DNA from: Verrucomicrobium sp.
GTDB lineage: Bacteria > Verrucomicrobiota > Verrucomicrobiia > Methylacidiphilales > UBA1321
Length of the DNA: 64,000 nucleotides
Reading direction: 5' to 3'
Assembly: GCA_017849585.1 (NCBI GenBank)
Contig: JAFIGT010000017.1
Location: 62,001-126,000 of the forward strand
Numbering within the stretch: position 1 is the first letter of the stretch; each line of letters begins with the position of its first letter. The notes under the pieces were generated by a model that saw nothing but the letters and a program-made list of their open reading frames with translations, did not search any database and had not been told where the DNA came from. Below are positions 27,750-44,125 of this stretch, piece after piece. The position numbers and the translations under genes are program-made.

Positions 27750-27765
27750 TGGCACGTGCGCTGCA
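27750..27765 (+). promoter_or_regulatory. Sigma-54 (-24/-12) promoter of nifH
   Basis: TGGCACGTGCGCTGCA matches the RpoN consensus with an intact TGGCACG box, GG-N10-GC spacing (GG 27751-27752, GC 27763-27764) and one deviation (C for T) in the -12 box. The predicted start near 27776 gives a leader of about 90 bases. Confidence 0.85.
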
Positions 27766-32890: not shown

Positions 32891-34306
32891 ATGAAGGAAA
32901 TCGAAATCATCCCAGAGCGCGAGGGTCAGGTGCAGCGCAAGGGAAACGTCTCGGCACCGATGGCGTGCAACAAGAAGAGCGCCGCCGGTTCCGTCAGCCA
33001 GCGAGCCTGTGTTTTCTGCGGCTCGCGCGTTGTGCTCTATCCGATTTCCGATGCGCTCCATGTCGTCCACGGTCCCATTGGCTGCGCCGCGTACACGTGG
33101 GATATTCGCGGTTCGCTTTCCAGCGGCCAGCAACTGCACCGCAATAGTTTCTCCACCGATCTGCGCGAGATGGATGTCATCTACGGCGGTGAAAAAAAAC
33201 TCCTTCTCGCCTTGCGCCAGCTGATCGCGCGTTACAAGCCCAAGGCCGCTTTCATCTATTCTACCTGCATCGTCGGGGTGATCGGCGATGACGTCGAAGC
33301 GGTTTGCCGGACAATGACTGCCGAAGCGGGCATCCCGGTTATTCCAGTTCATTCGGAAGGTTTCAAGGGAACCAAGAAAGATGGTTACCGCGCCGCCTGC
33401 GAGGCGGTCGCTACTCTTCTCGGCACCGGATCCACCGAGGACGTGAAGCCGCACAGCGTGAATATTCTCGGGGATTTCAATCTCGCGGGCGAGACGTGGA
33501 TCATCAAAAAGTATTACGAGCGGATGGGCATTCAAGTGGTCACCTGCATCACGGGCGACGCGAAGATCGAAGACATCCGCCGCGCGCACGGCGCGAAATT
33601 GAATCTGGTCCAATGCTCGGGATCGATGACGCATCTGGCGAAGATGATGGAGGAGAAGTACGGCATTCCCTTCAAACGCGTCTCGTACTTTGGCATCGAG
33701 GATATGTCCGCCGCGCTCTACGACACGGCGAAATTTTTCAGCAATGATCCGACGATCATGCAACGCGCCCAAGATCTGGTACGCGAGGAAGTCGGTAATA
33801 TTTACCCGCAACTGCAGGCGTATCGCGAAGAGCTACAAGGCAAGAAAGCCGCCATCTATGTGGGCGGTTCGTTCAAGGCGTTTTCCCTCGTGCGCGCGCT
33901 GCGTTTGATCGGGATGCAAACCGCCGTGGTTGGTTCGCAAACGGGCGGACCGGACGATTACAAGCAGCTCGCGGAAATTTGTGATGAAGGAACGATCATC
34001 GTGGACGATTCGAACCCGCTCGAGCTGGCTAAATTTGTCCTCGAAAAGGATGTGGATCTCTTTATCGGCGGCGTGAAGGAACGCCCGATCGCATACAAGC
34101 TCGGCGTGGCGTTCTGCGACCACAATCACGAGCGCAAAGAGCCGCTCGCCGGCTTTGTCGGTATGCTGAATTTTGCGAAGGAAGTCTATTCGTCCGTGAT
34201 GAGTCCGGTCTGGAATTTTGTTCCCAGAAGACAGCCCGGGCGCGCTCACACTGGCATGCCCAGTGCTCAGGAAAAGAGTGTCTCTCTCGAGGAGAAAACC
34301 CCATGA
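32891..34306 (+). CDS. nifE: NifE, FeMo-co scaffold alpha-like subunit
   Basis: With NifN forms the cytoplasmic scaffold on which the NifB product is converted to FeMo-co. 471 residues, GGAG seven bases before the ATG. NifD-like Cys positions are kept: Cys40 (RACVFCG), Cys65 (PIGCAAYTW) and Cys126 (STCIVGVIGDD). Signature HSEGFKGTKKDGY is typical of NifE. Overlaps nifN by four bases (ATGA), showing translational coupling. Confidence 0.95.
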   Translation: MKEIEIIPEREGQVQRKGNVSAPMACNKKSAAGSVSQRACVFCGSRVVLYPISDALHVVHGPIGCAAYTWDIRGSLSSGQQLHRNSFSTDLREMDVIYGGEKKLLLALRQLIARYKPKAAFIYSTCIVGVIGDDVEAVCRTMTAEAGIPVIPVHSEGFKGTKKDGYRAACEAVATLLGTGSTEDVKPHSVNILGDFNLAGETWIIKKYYERMGIQVVTCITGDAKIEDIRRAHGAKLNLVQCSGSMTHLAKMMEEKYGIPFKRVSYFGIEDMSAALYDTAKFFSNDPTIMQRAQDLVREEVGNIYPQLQAYREELQGKKAAIYVGGSFKAFSLVRALRLIGMQTAVVGSQTGGPDDYKQLAEICDEGTIIVDDSNPLELAKFVLEKDVDLFIGGVKERPIAYKLGVAFCDHNHERKEPLAGFVGMLNFAKEVYSSVMSPVWNFVPRRQPGRAHTGMPSAQEKSVSLEEKTP

Positions 34307-35790
34307 GTACGCTCTCTTCCCAAACCGTTTCCGCTTGTGCTTCGTGCAACTCGTTTGATTGCGATCCGTCGACCTGTTCGGCACGTCAACCCGTGGAAGA
34401 AATTGTCGAGACCGCGCCGTTTGCTGCGTCCACGGAAGGGATTACCGCCGCAACACGGAACGCCTGCAAACTTTGCACGCCGCTCGGCGCGTGTCTCGCG
34501 TTTCGGGGAGTAGAGGGGGCCATCCCGCTCTTGCATGGTTCGCAGGGTTGCTCCACGTATATCCGTCGCTATCTGATCAGCCACTTTCGCGAGCCGATTG
34601 ACATCGCTTCCTCCAATTTCACGGAAGACTCAGCGGTCTTTGGAGGCTCGAGTAATTTCAAGACCGCGGTAAAAAATCTCCGCCGCCAGTACGAGCCCGA
34701 GTTGATCGCCGTCGCTACGACGTGTCTTTCCGAAACGATCGGCGAGGACATGAAGCGGCTCTTTCACGAGTATTATGCCGAGAATTGGGAGGAGGGGCAT
34801 CCGCACATGGTGCATGTCTCGACGGCCAGTTATCGCGGCACGCATATCGACGGATTCCATAACGCGGTGAGGGCTCTCGTAGAGACGCTCGCGGTTTCCG
34901 GACCGCGCACGCGCCGTGTGAATCTGCTGCCGGGCATGGTTTCAACCGCCGATTTGCAGCATCTGAAAGAAATCCTCGCTGACTTCGGTTTGCCCTACAC
35001 GCTGCTGCCGGATTATTCCGAATCGCTCGATGGCGAGACCTGGGCCGAGTACGAAAAGTTGCCGAGCGGCGGCACGCCGATGAAGGCGATTGCGGAGACA
35101 GGTTCCGCGCAGCTCTCGATTGAATTCGGTCACACCATCGCGGGAACAAAAACCGCCGGTCAATTTTTGGAAGAAAAATTCTGTGTGCCGTGCCGTTCGC
35201 TCGGACTGCCGATCGGTATCGGCGAAACCGACGCATTTCTCGAAACGCTCGGCACGGCCAGTGGCCGCACCGTTCCGGCGAAGTACCGCCAGGAGCGGGG
35301 CCGCCTGGTCGACTCACTGGTGGACGGTCACAAATACGTCTTCGGTAAGCGGGCGATTGTCTACGGCGAGGAAGATCTCGTCGCCGGACTCTGTGCCTTT
35401 CTCTGCGAAATCGGCGTGGAACCGGTGCTCTGTGCTTCCGGTGGCGAAAGTGGTCGCCTCGAAGAAGCGATCAAGACGGCGCATCCCGCACCGTTGCGCA
35501 AGAGCATGGCGAAGATGGAAATTCGCGGCGGAGTCGACTTCGCAGAAATCGGCGAAGATGCGGAACGCCTCAAGCCTGATTTTCTCATCGGCAATAGCAA
35601 GGGTTACAAGATTGCAAAAAAGCTCAACGTGCCGCTGATCCGTTGCGGCTTCCCCATCCACGACCGCATCGGCGGTCACCGCCTCCTGCACCTCGGCTAT
35701 CGCGGCGCGCAAAGGCTCTACGACGAGATTGTCAACGCGCTACTTGAAGCAAAACAGGAGGGATCCGAAATCGGATACAGCTATTTATGA
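34303..35790 (+). CDS. nifN: NifN, FeMo-co scaffold beta-like subunit with Cys-rich N-terminus
   Basis: Beta-like partner of NifE. 495 residues. The core is NifN: NACKLCTPLGACLAFRGVEG, LHGSQGCSTYIRRYLISHF and TTCLSETIGEDM. Residues 1-30 carry an extra motif Cys12-x2-Cys15-x4-Cys20-x4-Cys25 that I do not know from standard NifN and that could hold an additional metal site. Start ATG lies within the ATGA overlap with nifE. Confidence 0.93.
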   Translation: MSTLSSQTVSACASCNSFDCDPSTCSARQPVEEIVETAPFAASTEGITAATRNACKLCTPLGACLAFRGVEGAIPLLHGSQGCSTYIRRYLISHFREPIDIASSNFTEDSAVFGGSSNFKTAVKNLRRQYEPELIAVATTCLSETIGEDMKRLFHEYYAENWEEGHPHMVHVSTASYRGTHIDGFHNAVRALVETLAVSGPRTRRVNLLPGMVSTADLQHLKEILADFGLPYTLLPDYSESLDGETWAEYEKLPSGGTPMKAIAETGSAQLSIEFGHTIAGTKTAGQFLEEKFCVPCRSLGLPIGIGETDAFLETLGTASGRTVPAKYRQERGRLVDSLVDGHKYVFGKRAIVYGEEDLVAGLCAFLCEIGVEPVLCASGGESGRLEEAIKTAHPAPLRKSMAKMEIRGGVDFAEIGEDAERLKPDFLIGNSKGYKIAKKLNVPLIRCGFPIHDRIGGHRLLHLGYRGAQRLYDEIVNALLEAKQEGSEIGYSYL

Positions 35791-35911: not shown

Positions 35912-37234
35912 ATGAGCACCGAAACCACCCTTTGCGAAACGGCCCCCACTCCCGGGGATGTGGCCCTCGATTTTTCGAAGCACCCGTGCTTCAACCGCGA
36001 CGCGCATCACAAATTCGGCCGCATCCATCTGCCGGTTGCGCCGCGCTGCAACATCCAGTGCAACTTCTGTAACCGCAAATTCGATTGCATGAATGAAAGC
36101 CGGCCCGGCGTCACCAGTTCGGTGTTGAAACCATGGCAGGCGGTGGATTACTTGAGCGAGATGCTCGAAAAGCGTCCCGAGATCACCGTGCTCGGCATTG
36201 CCGGTCCGGGCGATCCGTTTGCGAATTGCGAGGAGACGATGGAAACGCTGCGACTCGCCCGCGCGAAATTCCCGAATCTCATTCTTTGCCTCGCAAGTAA
36301 CGGCCTCGGCATTGGGCCGTACATCGACGAACTCGCTGAGTTGAAGACAAGTCACGTGACCATCACGATCAACGCGATCGATCCCGCCATCACGGCCAAG
36401 GTCTATGCCTGGGTGCGCGACAACAAGACACCGCTGCGGGGTCTCGCCGGTGCAGCACTGCTGCTGGAGCGCCAACTCGAAGCGATCGCCAAGTTGAAGG
36501 AAAAGAACATCGTGGTGAAGACGAACACGATCATCATGCCCGGCATCAATGATGAGCACATCCCGATCCTCGCGAAGAAAATGGGCGAAATGGGCGTCGA
36601 CATCATGAACTGCATGCCGCTGATCCCGGTGAAGGGCGCGGTGTTTGAGGACATGGAAGCGCCCAGCGCCACGATGACCGCCCGCGTGCGCTTGCAATCC
36701 GGCCTCTCTCTGCCGCAGATGGTCCATTGCGCCCGCTGTCGTGCGGATGCGGTCGGTCTGATCAATGAACAACCGACCGAGGAAGTCGCGGCGAAGCTCA
36801 ACGAGTATTCCCAACGCGCACCCAGTGGTGAAACCCGTCCCTGCATCGCCGTCGCATCACTCGAAGGCATGCTGGTGAATCAACACCTCGGCGAAGCCAC
36901 CCGTTTCCTCGTCTATGAACCCGCTGCGGAATCGAGCGCGGGTTATAAATTCAAGGAAGTCCGGCTCGCACCCGAACCCGGTCGCGGCGTCGAACGGTGG
37001 AAGGAACTCGCGGAAACGCTCAACGATTGCCGCATGGTCTTGGTGAGTGCGGCCGGAACCGGCCCGCGCGCGGTGATGGAAGAACTCGGCGTGCTCGTGA
37101 CCGAAATGGAAGGGCTCATCGACGAAGGTCTGCGCCCGCTCTTCGCGGGTCAGCCACTTCCCGCCACTTTAAAGAAGCGCCTCACCGGTTGCGGCGGTCC
37201 CTCCTGTCGCGGCACGGGCACCGGTTGCGCCTGA
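35912..37234 (+). CDS. nifB: NifB, radical SAM FeMo-co precursor synthase, with NifX-like domain
   Basis: Radical SAM enzyme that fuses two [4Fe-4S] clusters and inserts carbide to make the FeMo-co core (NifB-co). 440 residues from ATG at 35912, with AGGAAGGAG upstream. Radical SAM cysteines 46, 50 and 53 (PRCNIQCNFCNRKF); the SAM-binding GIAGPGDP follows at about 92. The C-terminal third (about 308-425, from IAVASLEGMLVNQHLGEA) is a NifX/NafY-type domain, probably for holding the cofactor. The end is Gly/Cys-rich (GCGGPSCRGTGTGCA), an uncommon tail. Confidence 0.95.
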   Translation: MSTETTLCETAPTPGDVALDFSKHPCFNRDAHHKFGRIHLPVAPRCNIQCNFCNRKFDCMNESRPGVTSSVLKPWQAVDYLSEMLEKRPEITVLGIAGPGDPFANCEETMETLRLARAKFPNLILCLASNGLGIGPYIDELAELKTSHVTITINAIDPAITAKVYAWVRDNKTPLRGLAGAALLLERQLEAIAKLKEKNIVVKTNTIIMPGINDEHIPILAKKMGEMGVDIMNCMPLIPVKGAVFEDMEAPSATMTARVRLQSGLSLPQMVHCARCRADAVGLINEQPTEEVAAKLNEYSQRAPSGETRPCIAVASLEGMLVNQHLGEATRFLVYEPAAESSAGYKFKEVRLAPEPGRGVERWKELAETLNDCRMVLVSAAGTGPRAVMEELGVLVTEMEGLIDEGLRPLFAGQPLPATLKKRLTGCGGPSCRGTGTGCA

Positions 37235-37285: not shown

Positions 37286-37594
37286 ATGATCACGAAACCG
37301 AAAACTCACATCTTCGTTTGCGGCAGCTTCCGCGCCACCGGCGCGCAGGGCGTCTGCCACAAAAAGGAATCCGCGCAATTGCTCCAGTACCTCACGGAAG
37401 AAGCCGCTGATCGCGGTCTCGATGACGTGATGGTCTCGAGCACCGGCTGTATGAAACTCTGCGATCACGGTCCTGTCGTCGTGGTCTATCCGCAAGGTCA
37501 CTGGTACAAGAGCGTGAACGAATCCGCCGCGGACGCGATCCTCGATGCGATCGAAAACGACAGCGTGGCCGAGGAACATCTCCTCGTCGCCTAG
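37286..37594 (+). CDS. Thioredoxin-like [2Fe-2S] ferredoxin, nif-associated
   Basis: 102 residues, Shethna/FdI-type thioredoxin-fold ferredoxin. Cluster cysteines at 12, 24, 55 and 59 (FVCGSF, QGVCHK, STGCMKLCDHG). The fold and spacing match the nif-linked 2Fe-2S protein of Azotobacter and Clostridium, whose proposed roles are electron transfer during cofactor assembly or conformational protection of nitrogenase. AGGAAAAG precedes the ATG. Lies between nifB and nifV with a six-base gap to nifV. Confidence 0.9.
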   Translation: MITKPKTHIFVCGSFRATGAQGVCHKKESAQLLQYLTEEAADRGLDDVMVSSTGCMKLCDHGPVVVVYPQGHWYKSVNESAADAILDAIENDSVAEEHLLVA

Positions 37595-37600
37595 TTTGTT

Positions 37601-38755
37601 ATGACTCCTCACCTCATCGACACCACGTTGCGCGACGGCGAGCAGACGCCGGGCGTGGTGTTTTCGCGTGAGGAAAAAATCCGCATCGCCCGTGGCCTCG
37701 CTGAACTCGGGATTCCCGAGCTCGAGGTCGGCATTCCGGCCATGGGCGGTCGGCAGATCGATGACATCAATGCGGTGTGCGACCTGAATACCGGCTGCAA
37801 GATTCTCACGTGGTGCCGCGCCGCGCATGCGGACTTGGATCTCGCGGCATGCTGTCGCGCAGATGGCGTCCATATTTCCGTGCCCACATCGTCGATCCAT
37901 CTCGAAGCGTGGGGCAAATCGCGTCAATGGGCGTTGACCATTCTGCACGAACTGGTGCAGGAAGGACTTGGCAGATTTTCGTACGTCACCGTCGGCGCGC
38001 AGGACGCTTCCCGCGCGGAACCGGAGTTCGTCGGAGATCTCGCGGCGGCGGCCGCCTTTGCCGGAGCGAAGCGTTTCCGCATCGCGGACACCGTGGGCAT
38101 TCTCAATCCTCTAAGCACTGCGAAGTTGATTGAAACCGTGCGCGCGGCCACCAATGGCATCGAACTCGAATTTCACGGCCATAACGATCTCGGCATGGCG
38201 GTGGGCAATACCATCGCGGCGTTTCAAGCCGGAGCCGAGGCCGCCAGCGTGACCGTCAACGGCATCGGCGAACGCACCGGCAATGCGCCGCTTGAAGAAG
38301 TCGTCATGGCGTTGCGCGTGTCCTGCGGCATCGATTGCGGCATCAAGACGCGCCACATCTGGCAGCTCTCGCACTTTGTCGCCACCGCCTCGGGCCGCGA
38401 CTTGCATCCTTCCAAGCCCGTGACCGGCTCAGCGGCGTTTCTGCATGAATCGGGCATCCACTGCGCAGGGCTGCTGCGCAATCACGAGACCTACGAACCG
38501 TTCAATGCGGATGAAGTCGGCCGGGGTGGCTCGGAATTTGTGCTCGGTCATCATTCCGGCAAAGCGGTGCTGCGGCACATGCTGGAACGTATCGGCATCA
38601 AGGTGGACCAAGCTACGGCATCGCAATTGCTTGAACTCGCACGGGAACAGGCGCGCCTGCTTAAGCGGGCGCTCACGGCGGAGGAACTCCGCCAGCTCGT
38701 CGCGGAAACGACCGAACTCCAGGCGGAGTTTAATTACGCTCGGAGAGAATCGTGA
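37601..38755 (+). CDS. nifV: NifV, homocitrate synthase
   Basis: Condenses acetyl-CoA with 2-oxoglutarate to homocitrate, the organic ligand of FeMo-co. 384 residues, typical. Visible: the catalytic [15 protein letters not shown] at the N-terminus, the metal site HGHND (residues about 189-193) and [13 protein letters not shown]. Linked to the nif genes, which favours NifV over 2-isopropylmalate synthase or lysine-pathway homocitrate synthase. The last part of the gene overlaps a possible small minus-strand gene. Confidence 0.93.
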
Positions 38756-38954
38756 AAAACAGATTGCAGCACTTTTCCATCTCTTCGGAGTCGACCTTGA
38801 AGAGTTCCGAGCAAACCCGGAAACCACCGTTCATGTTCGGCTTGAGGAAAAGAATCTTCGCATTGCAATCGCTTTCCTCGTCGTCGTATCCGGACAGGGA
38901 GGCGATCTCAAAGCCCTCGTCATTGAGATATTTCAAGCGTGCGAGCATTTTCAT
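38730..38954 (-). CDS. Possible small gene antisense to the nifV end, unknown
   Basis: 74 residues, acidic and with four Cys (SDCNAK, RVCSE, EKCCNLF). This frame has high GC at third codon positions and a balanced, globular-looking composition, while the plus-strand frames over 38756-39011 look non-coding. It fills the otherwise empty 256-base gap between nifV and the next gene and overlaps the last 26 bases of nifV. There is no clear ribosome binding site at ATG 38954; a TTG at 38993 is an alternative. No family recognised. Confidence 0.4.
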
Positions 38955-39011: not shown

Positions 39012-39506
39012 ATGGGTTTTAAGATGTATCGGTTCGAAGTCGGTGAAAACTTGAGGGAAACTTATCACAATCCGGAATCCCTCATCCTGTCCGGATTCTC
39101 CAGTCCGCTGGCGGGTTATGTAAAAGCCGTCAAACAAGAGACCTGGAACCTGAGTGAGATTGAGCTGATTGCCCTAGCAAAGCCGGGAGTGGATATCCAC
39201 AGCACCGCGATCCTGTTCGAGGCGGGCTCGGATCAACCCGGCCATATCACACTATACCGGCTCGTAAGCCTGCACGGTCGCAGCACCGACGACACCACCG
39301 AGTTCATCGCCCATTTCAAGATTTTGCTGAACAATGCAAAGGTTGGTGATCTGTCCTCTTTCCGAACAAAGTTCACCACGGACTCCTCGGTCGGCAAGCC
39401 CGACATCTACGAAAATCTGAAACTCTCCGGCGGTACCCGCTCCGGCACCTGGCGCTGGATGGAAATCGAACAACTTCTCAATGCCGGGGTGATCGCTCCA
39501 AAATAA
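39012..39506 (+). CDS. Unknown protein encoded in the nif block
   Basis: 164 residues, soluble, no signal peptide or membrane segment, no recognised domain. GAAGGAAAG lies 8 bases before ATG 39012, so it is very likely translated. Alternating hydrophobic stretches (SLILSGFSSPLAGYVKAV, HITLYRLVSLHGR) suggest a mixed alpha/beta fold; one Trp-rich end (TWRWMEIEQLL). Being between nifV and the cytochrome gene in the same direction, it may have a nif-related role, which is inference only. Confidence 0.7.
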   Translation: MGFKMYRFEVGENLRETYHNPESLILSGFSSPLAGYVKAVKQETWNLSEIELIALAKPGVDIHSTAILFEAGSDQPGHITLYRLVSLHGRSTDDTTEFIAHFKILLNNAKVGDLSSFRTKFTTDSSVGKPDIYENLKLSGGTRSGTWRWMEIEQLLNAGVIAPK

Positions 39507-39573: not shown

Positions 39574-40521
39574 ATGTGCTCTCACGATTCTGACTCCTCC
39601 CGACCCTGCCAGTGTGGCGGTGGTGGTCACCACCACGCCACGGCCCGGCAACCTGCACGCGTATCGGGTCGATCAGGTGGCATTCCGCTCACCGTTCTTC
39701 CGGCGGATGAAACCGAGTGTTGCGGAGGCCACGGCAAAGAGGGTGGCGGCTGTGGATGTGGCGGTCACAGTCATGATCCGCACGCCGATGTCGAGCACGC
39801 TTGCAGTTGCGGTGGTTGCCCGCGTCGTTACCATTCGCTCGCGGGACTTGTCCTTGGTGTTTATCTGCTCGTTCATCTCGGCATCAGCTTGCTCGGTTTC
39901 TGGCCGGATCGTTATCAGGCCGTTCTCTCGTTCATTCATCGCAACAGCGCAGCACTGCTGATCGTTGAAGTGGTCTTCATTCTCCTGCCACTTGTCGTGC
40001 ATGTTGGTTACGGACTCCGCTTTCTTTTGCGTGAAGGAGTCACGCTGCCCCGGGAAAAGCATCATTACGGCAATGCGACGCGTTTTTTCTGGCAACGCGT
40101 TTCGGCGATCATCCTGCTGGCGTTCATTCTCTTTCACGTGGCAACGCTGCATCGCTACGGATTCCATGCGATCTACCAGCTTACTCATTGGTCCGCGCTG
40201 GAGCGCTATGCGCCAGGCGGACTTTTCGATCCCGCGAAGGCATATGCGTCGACCGTCCGCGGTGTGCACACCTTCTGGAATGAACAGCAGCCGTGGCATC
40301 CGGGCAATGTCCTCGTGATGAGTTTTTATTTCGTCTCCATTCTCGCTGCGGTCTATCACCTCGCCAACGGCGTCGCCACCAGCGCGATGGTGTGGGAGTT
40401 TACGCCGGATAATTCACCTGCCGCCGCGCGGCTCTGGAAATTGTGCATCCTGGGAGGAATTCTTATCACGCTTGTTGGCGTGGGCGCATGGGCTGCGTTC
40501 ACCATTGGAGCCCACCTATAA
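39574..40521 (+). CDS. Orphan SdhC-type di-heme cytochrome b with Cys/His-rich N-terminal tail
   Basis: 315 residues. Residues 1-87 hold 10 Cys (2, 12, 14, 49, 50, 60, 62, 77, 79, 82) and 10 His in Gly-rich motifs such as CQCGGGGHHH and CGCGGHSHDPH, likely metal-binding. Residues 88-312 form five membrane helices like the B. subtilis-type succinate dehydrogenase cytochrome b558; helices 1-4 each carry a His (101, 143, 188, 262), the usual axial ligands of two hemes b. No SdhA or SdhB gene is next to it. Its place after nifV and before mop/modA suggests a role in membrane electron flow, oxygen protection or metal handling for nitrogenase; this is inference. Confidence 0.75.
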   Translation: MCSHDSDSSRPCQCGGGGHHHATARQPARVSGRSGGIPLTVLPADETECCGGHGKEGGGCGCGGHSHDPHADVEHACSCGGCPRRYHSLAGLVLGVYLLVHLGISLLGFWPDRYQAVLSFIHRNSAALLIVEVVFILLPLVVHVGYGLRFLLREGVTLPREKHHYGNATRFFWQRVSAIILLAFILFHVATLHRYGFHAIYQLTHWSALERYAPGGLFDPAKAYASTVRGVHTFWNEQQPWHPGNVLVMSFYFVSILAAVYHLANGVATSAMVWEFTPDNSPAAARLWKLCILGGILITLVGVGAWAAFTIGAHL

Positions 40522-40641: not shown

Positions 40642-40851
40642 ATGAAATTAAGTGCACGTAATGTTCTCAAAGGAAAAGTCATCAGCATCAAAGCTGGTCC
40701 AGTCAGCACCATCGTCGAAATTGAAGTGGCCAAAGGGGTCGTCCTGAGCTCAGTTATTACCAGTCCCTCGGCCAAGAATTTGAAGTTGAAGAAGGGCAAA
40801 GAGGCTTATGCCATCATCAAGTCCTCAAACATCATCGTCGGCGTCGATTAG
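40642..40851 (+). CDS. mop: Mop-type molybdate-binding protein (single TOBE domain)
   Basis: 69 residues, one TOBE/Mop domain: MKLSARNVLKGKVISIKAGPVSTIVEIEV then SSVITSPSAKNLKLKKGKEAYAIIKSS, the typical oligomer-forming molybdate/tungstate store. AAGGAG precedes the ATG. In diazotrophs such proteins buffer molybdate for FeMo-co. Followed after 34 bases by modA, supporting a molybdate supply role. Confidence 0.9.
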   Translation: MKLSARNVLKGKVISIKAGPVSTIVEIEVAKGVVLSSVITSPSAKNLKLKKGKEAYAIIKSSNIIVGVD

Positions 40852-40885: not shown

Positions 40886-41704
40886 ATGAATCGAAAACAG
40901 TTTCTCCGTTCGCTGTCAGCCCTGCTCATCGGTCTGGCATTGGCGTCGGGTTCTGTCCTCACCCTACTTCACGCCGAACCGGCGAAGAAGGAAGTCACAG
41001 TCTTCGCCGCCGCGTCTCTGGTGGATGCATTCAAGGTGCTGAAGAAATCCTTCGAAAACGCGCATCCGGGCGTGACGATTACCTACAATTTCGCGGGTTC
41101 GCAGCAATTGCGCGCACAGATAGAGCAGGGCGCCACGCCTGATGTTTTTGCCAGTGCGAATCTCGACGAGATCAAGACGCTCGCGGCGAAGAAATACGTG
41201 GACGAAGCACAGTCGAAGATTTTTGCGCGCAATAAACTCGTGATTGCCGTCAATGCCCAGAGCGATGTTCCGGTGAAATCACCCACGGATCTTGCGACCG
41301 CCAAACTAAAGCTGGTCCTCGCCGACAAATCGGTTCCGGTCGGCAAATACACGGTCAAGTATCTCGAGGACGCCTCAAAAGATCCAGCCTTCGGTGCCAG
41401 CTACAAGGACGCAGTGCTGAAGAATGTGGTGTCGTATGAAACAAACGTCCGCGCCGTACTCACGAAGGTAACTCTGGGTGAAGCCGATGCGGGGGTGGTC
41501 TATGCCACGGATGCGCAGAGTGTGGAAGCAGGCAAGCTCTTCACCATCGGTTTACCGCCCGGCCTAAGCGAAATCGCGCAGTATCCGATCGCGCCCCTGG
41601 TTAAGGCGCCGAATAAGGCGTTGGCTCAGGAATTCGTGGCTTATGTCCTTTCTCCCGAAGGCCAGAAGATCCTCGCGAAATTCGGGTTTCTGGGTAATCC
41701 ATAA
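40886..41704 (+). CDS. modA: ModA, molybdate-binding periplasmic protein
   Basis: Solute-binding component of a molybdate ABC importer. 272 residues; signal peptide 1-31 (...LLHAEPAKK). The ModA start of the mature protein, VTVFAAASLVDAFKVL, carries the oxyanion-binding Ser; NFAGSQQLRAQIEQGATPDVFASAN and GEADAGVVYATDA follow in the family order, quoted in part. modB and modC are not in this window. Tungstate as substrate cannot be excluded. Ends before a bidirectional terminator. Confidence 0.9.
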   Translation: MNRKQFLRSLSALLIGLALASGSVLTLLHAEPAKKEVTVFAAASLVDAFKVLKKSFENAHPGVTITYNFAGSQQLRAQIEQGATPDVFASANLDEIKTLAAKKYVDEAQSKIFARNKLVIAVNAQSDVPVKSPTDLATAKLKLVLADKSVPVGKYTVKYLEDASKDPAFGASYKDAVLKNVVSYETNVRAVLTKVTLGEADAGVVYATDAQSVEAGKLFTIGLPPGLSEIAQYPIAPLVKAPNKALAQEFVAYVLSPEGQKILAKFGFLGNP

Positions 41705-43710: not shown

Positions 43711-44125
43711 GATCTCTTATTCTCCTATGATGGGTTGTTTTCCAGTTTCGCCCGACCAGACATCCCTCCGCCATCGCGAGATCCTTATCTGCGAGGTATA
43801 GAGCGCCGTCGAATGAACTTTAGTCCGGAAAAGCAACGGCCATGCCAATTTGTAGGATTTTCTCTTACAGGTTGTAAGGCCATCGGCTTCTCCCCTCGCC
43901 AGATGTTCCTTTACAGCCATTTTCCGTAGGAAATGACCGATTCTGGCTTGTTTTGACCATACAGATCACCGAAATGGCACCTTCTCTGGGGAAGCATACT
44001 TCCGGCAAAAAGCGGAAGACTGGGTGCAGAACCTGCTTTCAGGGGAGGGGATAGAAAACCAGAACCAGATCATATGTCATGGCGTTTTGCCACGCCACGA
44101 CGTTGAGCTCTGCCTTGTTAATATT
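43711..44125. other. Divergent intergenic region between amtB and the histidine kinase gene
   Basis: 415 bases. Holds the amtB sigma-54 promoter and the inverted repeat at 43864-43878. A near match to a -24/-12 site on the plus strand (TGGCACCTTCTCTGG near 43975) has GG in place of GC at -12 and is not called. No gene seen, unless the kinase starts earlier at GTG 44024. Confidence 0.55.
43832..43847 (-). promoter_or_regulatory. Sigma-54 (-24/-12) promoter of amtB-glnK
   Basis: On the minus strand TGGCATGGCCGTTGCT matches the RpoN consensus with GG-N10-GC spacing and an intact TTGC -12 box. The leader to the amtB ATG would be about 110 bases. An inverted repeat CTTACAGGTTGTAAG lies just upstream at 43864-43878. 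Confidence 0.85.

Follow-up and report, generated by a model that had tools for sequence, protein, structure and literature searches.

An orphan SdhC-type cytochrome b with a Cys/His-rich head, linked to nitrogen fixation genes in Verrucomicrobiota

The closest described relatives of the protein analyzed here are the SdhC subunits of the b558 family (TIGR02046, PF01127) from succinate:menaquinone oxidoreductase and fumarate reductase, with which it shares a five-helix domain and four His at heme-ligand positions. In di-heme SdhC proteins, bis-His hemes link the quinone site to a cytoplasmic Fe-S subunit (PMC7447783), and electron flow toward menaquinone can be powered by the membrane potential in proteins of this class (PMC10308238). 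The present protein and its homologues, here called nif-type, differ from the b558 family in forming a separate clade, in having no SdhA/SdhB genes, in carrying a Cys/His/Gly-rich head of 46–87 residues, and in being located in or with nif. Rnf and Fix of diazotrophs are likewise membrane-linked redox genes associated with nif, but they are multi-subunit flavin/Fe-S systems and not of the SdhC type, whereas the cytochrome lacks any flavin or NADH module. The MsrQ/YedZ type and similar families also comprise small heme b proteins of the membrane that are linked to quinone. By working mode the cytochrome may be likened to these, as it would hand electrons from quinol to a partner that is not part of the respiratory chain; we know of no Cys/His head in the MsrQ/YedZ type. 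The literature searched yielded no report of nif clusters that contain an SdhC-type protein, nor of an SdhC head rich in Cys.

The gene lies in a nif region of the 64,000-nucleotide stretch that was analyzed (the window), with the following features.

34303–35790, forward strand: nifN
35912–37234, forward strand: nifB with a nifX-like C-terminal part
37286–37594, forward strand: [2Fe-2S] ferredoxin of the nif cluster
37601–38755, forward strand: nifV (homocitrate synthase)
38730–38954, reverse strand: conserved 74-residue gene of no known family, tail to tail with nifV
39012–39506, forward strand: conserved 164-residue protein (hyp164) of no known family, directly upstream of the cytochrome
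39574–40521, forward strand: nif-linked orphan SdhC-type cytochrome b, 315 residues, with Cys/His-rich N-terminal head
39574–39834, forward strand: Cys/His/Gly-rich head, residues 1–87, with 10 Cys, 10 His and 18 Gly
39817–40518, forward strand: five-helix SdhC-like membrane domain, from CPRR onward, with putative heme ligands H101, H143, H188 and H262
40642–40851, forward strand: mop molbindin (TOBE domain)
40886–41704, forward strand: modA, molybdate-binding protein

The earlier note had placed the cytochrome between nifV and mop/modA. The downstream half of this description holds, as mop and modA follow directly, but the upstream neighbor is hyp164 and then the 74-residue gene on the opposite strand. 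Because that gene separates nifV from the hyp164-cytochrome unit, there is no unbroken operon with nifV. Relatives of the 74-residue gene are present in genomes G002 (99% identity), G001 (80%) and, in the same place beside nifV, G091 (45%; L023:2295-2510). Two nif proteins of the window also have Cys-rich ends: the N-terminus of NifN (ACASCNSFDCDPSTC; window 34303–34400) and the Cys/Gly-rich tail of NifB (TGCGGPSCRGTGTGCA; window 37180–37234), the latter being present in the NifB of genome G025 as well.

The open reading frame at 39574–40521 is a real gene, since comparison with its nearest relative, from G002 (90% identity, dS about 0.48), gave dN/dS values of 0.19 for the head and 0.09 for the membrane part. 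An M-C-S start is common to three species. The membrane part matched Pfam Sdh_cyt (PF01127) at 2.5e-5 and 24.8 bits, just below the cut-off of 25.8, and residues 84–277 matched TIGR02046 (sdhC_b558_fam) at 1.3e-8 and 34.8 bits, far below the cut-off of 96; the G025 homologue matched the latter at 1.5e-16. The earlier description as an SdhC-like protein with one His in each of helices I–IV was borne out: H101, H143, H188 and H262 align with the conserved His of canonical SdhC. All four are present in four of the five family members, and G025 alone has Gln at the helix-II position, so that the di-heme architecture proposed earlier would not be universal in the family. Heme binding and the use of quinone are predicted for the cytochrome. 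In common with the SdhC type of genomes G070 and G144, it has an R-[KR]-x-H-S motif ahead of helix I. A profile search found no relative in the PDB, and AlphaFold models from two-row alignments reached pLDDT values of 46 (full length) and 49 (membrane domain plus the last head residues), too weak for use.

The head contains the motifs CQCGG, CCGGH, CGCGGH and CSCGGCPRR. The residue counts given in the earlier note were exact, and this part has no match to any Pfam family. Against a background of 16 neighboring genes, the chance of such a composition is about 3e-6 for Cys, 4e-5 for His and 1e-4 for Gly. Between the window and G002, the part of the head before CPRR has 9/9 Cys, 9/9 His and 18/18 Gly identical, compared with 31/45 of the other residues (36/36 versus 31/45, Fisher p = 1.5e-4). 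Across the five members the head shortens from 87 through 86, 72 and 60 to 46 residues, with 10, 10, 7, 6 and 5 Cys, respectively. Each of the five heads nevertheless keeps at least two CxCG motifs, and C-P-R-(R/K) closes the head before helix I in all but G025, which has A-P-R-R. The head is a putative metal-binding site. The helix II–III loop is the most positive of the inter-helix loops (6 Lys/Arg, 2 acidic residues) and CPRR precedes helix I. Under the positive-inside rule the head would then face the cytoplasm, on the side to which SdhB attaches in complex II. Short Cys clusters at the N-terminus (MSEKCCC, SPCCSSC), in some cases also at the C-terminus, were seen in ordinary SdhC proteins with sdhA adjacent from several Verrucomicrobiota (L005, L006, L011, L013, L014, L017 and L060). 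A Cys tail alone is thus not nif-specific and is no proof of a nif role.

The orphan status claimed for the gene was confirmed. The host's real sdhCAB, with an SdhC scoring 159.7 bits followed by sdhA and sdhB, is on contig 33, whereas the window belongs to contig 41 of that genome. The sdhA gene adjoins all 20 canonical SdhC genes that were compared and stands beside none of the nif-type carrier loci checked; homologues confined to sdhA/sdhB loci away from nif were thus not what was found. In G025, no sdhC besides the nif-type gene and no sdhB were found. In the phylogenetic tree, the five nif-type proteins form one group (support 83/57) that adjoins the SdhC type of G070/G144, a placement to be read with caution because of long branches, above all that of G025. 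For this tree low-occupancy columns were trimmed, and the G001 row kept part of its head owing to an early motif match. The group is far from the host's own SdhC (100/100 split). A recent duplication of the host's own sdhC is ruled out by the tree. The SdhA paired with the nearest SdhC relatives of the nif type is only 42% identical to that of the host.

Carriers were sought in overlapping genome samples of 142 relatives, 388 genomes of the phylum, 62 of the order, 384 of the class and 245 of the order of G509. Five were found: the genome of the window (G000), two more species of its genus (G002 and G001, with 90% and 59% identity), G025 from another family of the order (about 31%) and G509 from another order; G025 and G509 are draft assemblies of about 20 and 540 contigs, in which a binning error is possible. 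All five contain nifB, compared with only 20 of the 142 relatives over the cut-off. Four of the carriers are among these relatives, and the probability that every one of the four would have nifB by chance is 3e-4 when genomes are counted and 0.013 when genera are counted. One genus accounts for three of the five carriers. A scan of public genome contigs matched only the known close relative, and no match was obtained among plasmids or viral contigs.

The gene is located inside the nif cluster in four of the five carriers (all but G509), in two different arrangements. Relatives with as little as about 31% identity retain both the nif linkage and a Cys-rich head. The three species of the genus share the order nifV, hyp164, cytochrome; mop and modA follow directly in the window and in G002, and in G001 modA lies several kilobases further. 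In G025 the order is nifN, cytochrome, nifB. The cytochrome gene begins within nifN, sharing its first 23 bases with the end of that gene, and its stop codon overlaps the start of nifB in the sequence ATGA; these overlaps strongly indicate a single transcription unit. In G509 the gene is on a short contig without nif genes, and nifB is on another contig. Next after the G509 homologue (L053:5044-5559, reverse strand) comes trmO (tRNA methyltransferase; TIGR00104, 2.2e-34), and apparent ABC transporter genes of the MlaE/MlaF/MlaD type are nearby. A hyp164 homologue (22% identity) stands beside nifV in G025 (L019:15250-15756), and none was found on the nif contig of G509. G001 (L024, L025 and L026) has three nifB copies and a second nitrogenase-like nifDK set with its own nifA, 32–35% identical to NifD/NifK of the window and possibly an alternative nitrogenase. 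Many Verrucomicrobiota with nif genes (Methylacidiphilum-like genomes, G134, G090) gave no match to the cytochrome gene, so that the protein is not essential for fixation; absence in incomplete genomes, though, proves little.

Genes for NifA and a PII-like protein are in the same region as the cytochrome. No sigma-54/NifA-like site was found just upstream of the cytochrome gene. Matches to the sigma-54 pattern in the window equaled the chance level (33 observed, 33 expected), and NifA-like TGT-N10-ACA sites were fewer than expected. The best sigma-54-like sites, each with one mismatch, are at 27750–27765 (forward strand) before nifH and at 43832–43847 (reverse strand) before amtB.

The scan of public genome contigs identified the metagenome-assembled genome Tous-C9LFEB as the closest relative of the host. 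According to passages of PMC5673642, this member of the host's genus comes from a fully oxic reservoir, has an nifHDKENB operon and was proposed as 'Ca. Verrucococcus diazotrophicus'; the cytochrome gene goes without mention in those passages. The host was earlier taken for a member of the Opitutales, which this evidence does not bear out: its genus contains Tous-C9LFEB and its order contains the f9 genomes with a long nifB, which appear to be Methylacidiphilum-like.

Taken together, we favor, with a probability of about 0.4, a small quinone-linked electron conduit derived from an SdhC-type anchor, with a cytoplasmic metal-binding head, that serves nitrogenase maturation. An SdhC-type membrane anchor of complex II would have lost its SdhA/SdhB partners and gained the Cys/His/Gly-rich head. 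Menaquinone would bind in the membrane domain, and electrons would cross the bilayer through two b hemes (of which the G025 homologue probably has one) to the head, which would occupy the cytoplasmic face at the usual docking place of SdhB. The head would exchange electrons either with cargo, in the form of metal or Fe-S, or with a soluble protein of nif maturation. The cytochrome would thereby adjust the redox state of the metals, thiols or Fe-S clusters that are used for FeMo-co and nitrogenase maturation, and would not feed nitrogenase directly. Homology to SdhC, the four His, the conserved CxCG motifs, the missing SdhA/SdhB and the nif linkage are evident from the sequences; the binding of heme and of metal, the use of quinone, the direction of electron flow and a nif-related substrate are the presumed parts of the proposal. 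Because SdhB is gone and a head rich in metal ligands stands in its place, a quinone-linked conduit to a cytosolic metal center is the simplest reading. A role in maturation or redox protection is suggested by the position of the gene among cofactor-assembly genes (nifN, nifB, nifV, mop) and not electron-supply genes. In a more specific and distinctly tentative form, the protein would be a single-subunit enzyme derived from complex II, in which a redox-active metal or Fe-S center of the head replaces SdhB, and the quinone pool together with the membrane potential sets the redox state of metals and clusters for FeMo-co and nitrogenase assembly.

It is rather unlikely that the head is only a metal buffer or chaperone, storing Fe, Zn, Cu or Ni close to the membrane, or passing it on, for the assembly of nif cofactors, with the membrane domain mainly an anchor for it and the hemes vestigial. 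The invariance of the head Cys, His and Gly between two species, the adjacent molybdenum-handling genes mop and modA, and the loss of one ligand His in G025 would fit this function, but the four-His membrane domain is under stronger purifying selection than the head (dN/dS 0.09 versus 0.19), and for this reason the membrane part is probably not just an anchor. A redox or oxygen sensor, with a cytochrome that responds to the quinone pool or O2 and a head that passes the signal to nif regulators or protects nitrogenase, appears quite unlikely. The NifA and PII-like genes of the region and the fully oxic source given for Tous-C9LFEB in passages of PMC5673642 are in its favor. A signaling domain or partner kinase, however, is neither attached nor directly adjacent. 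Moreover, O2 binding is unusual for bis-His hemes. The gene might also be a passenger unrelated to nitrogen fixation, linked by chance or through co-transfer of the cluster; it is rare and patchy, and it is not adjacent to nif in G509. Its two different positions inside nif clusters, the overlap with both nifN and nifB in G025, the presence of nifB in all carriers and the purifying selection make this very unlikely.

The electron-donor route to nitrogenase raised in the earlier note is now disfavored. Quinol electrons would have to be pushed to the nif ferredoxin and on to nitrogenase, and the cluster does contain a [2Fe-2S] ferredoxin gene, RnfC above the cut-off was found in no carrier, and G025 has neither RnfC nor NifJ above the cut-off. 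NifJ is complete, however, in G000, G002 and G509. Menaquinol has a potential near −75 mV, and the carriers to be reduced lie near −400 mV. Through a two-heme path menaquinol would be too weak a reductant for them, even at full membrane potential, and together with NifJ in those three carriers this makes direct supply highly improbable. Hardly any weight falls on an anchor of an alternative complex II that recruits SdhA/SdhB made elsewhere. The cytochrome belongs to the same sequence family as SdhC and SdhA/SdhB are present in G000, but the SdhC that belongs to these is of a distant clade, a divergent SdhA (the 42% identity given above) accompanies the closest SdhC relatives of the nif type, and SdhB was not found in G025.

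The preferred reading, a quinone-linked conduit serving maturation, suggests an as yet undescribed connection of the respiratory quinone pool with the making or protecting of nitrogenase. It is not fully understood how the supply of reductant, iron and sulfur for FeMo-co is connected to metabolism at large. A family that acted in nitrogenase maturation would couple cofactor assembly directly to the quinone pool and would show a complex II subunit reused with a new metal-binding head.
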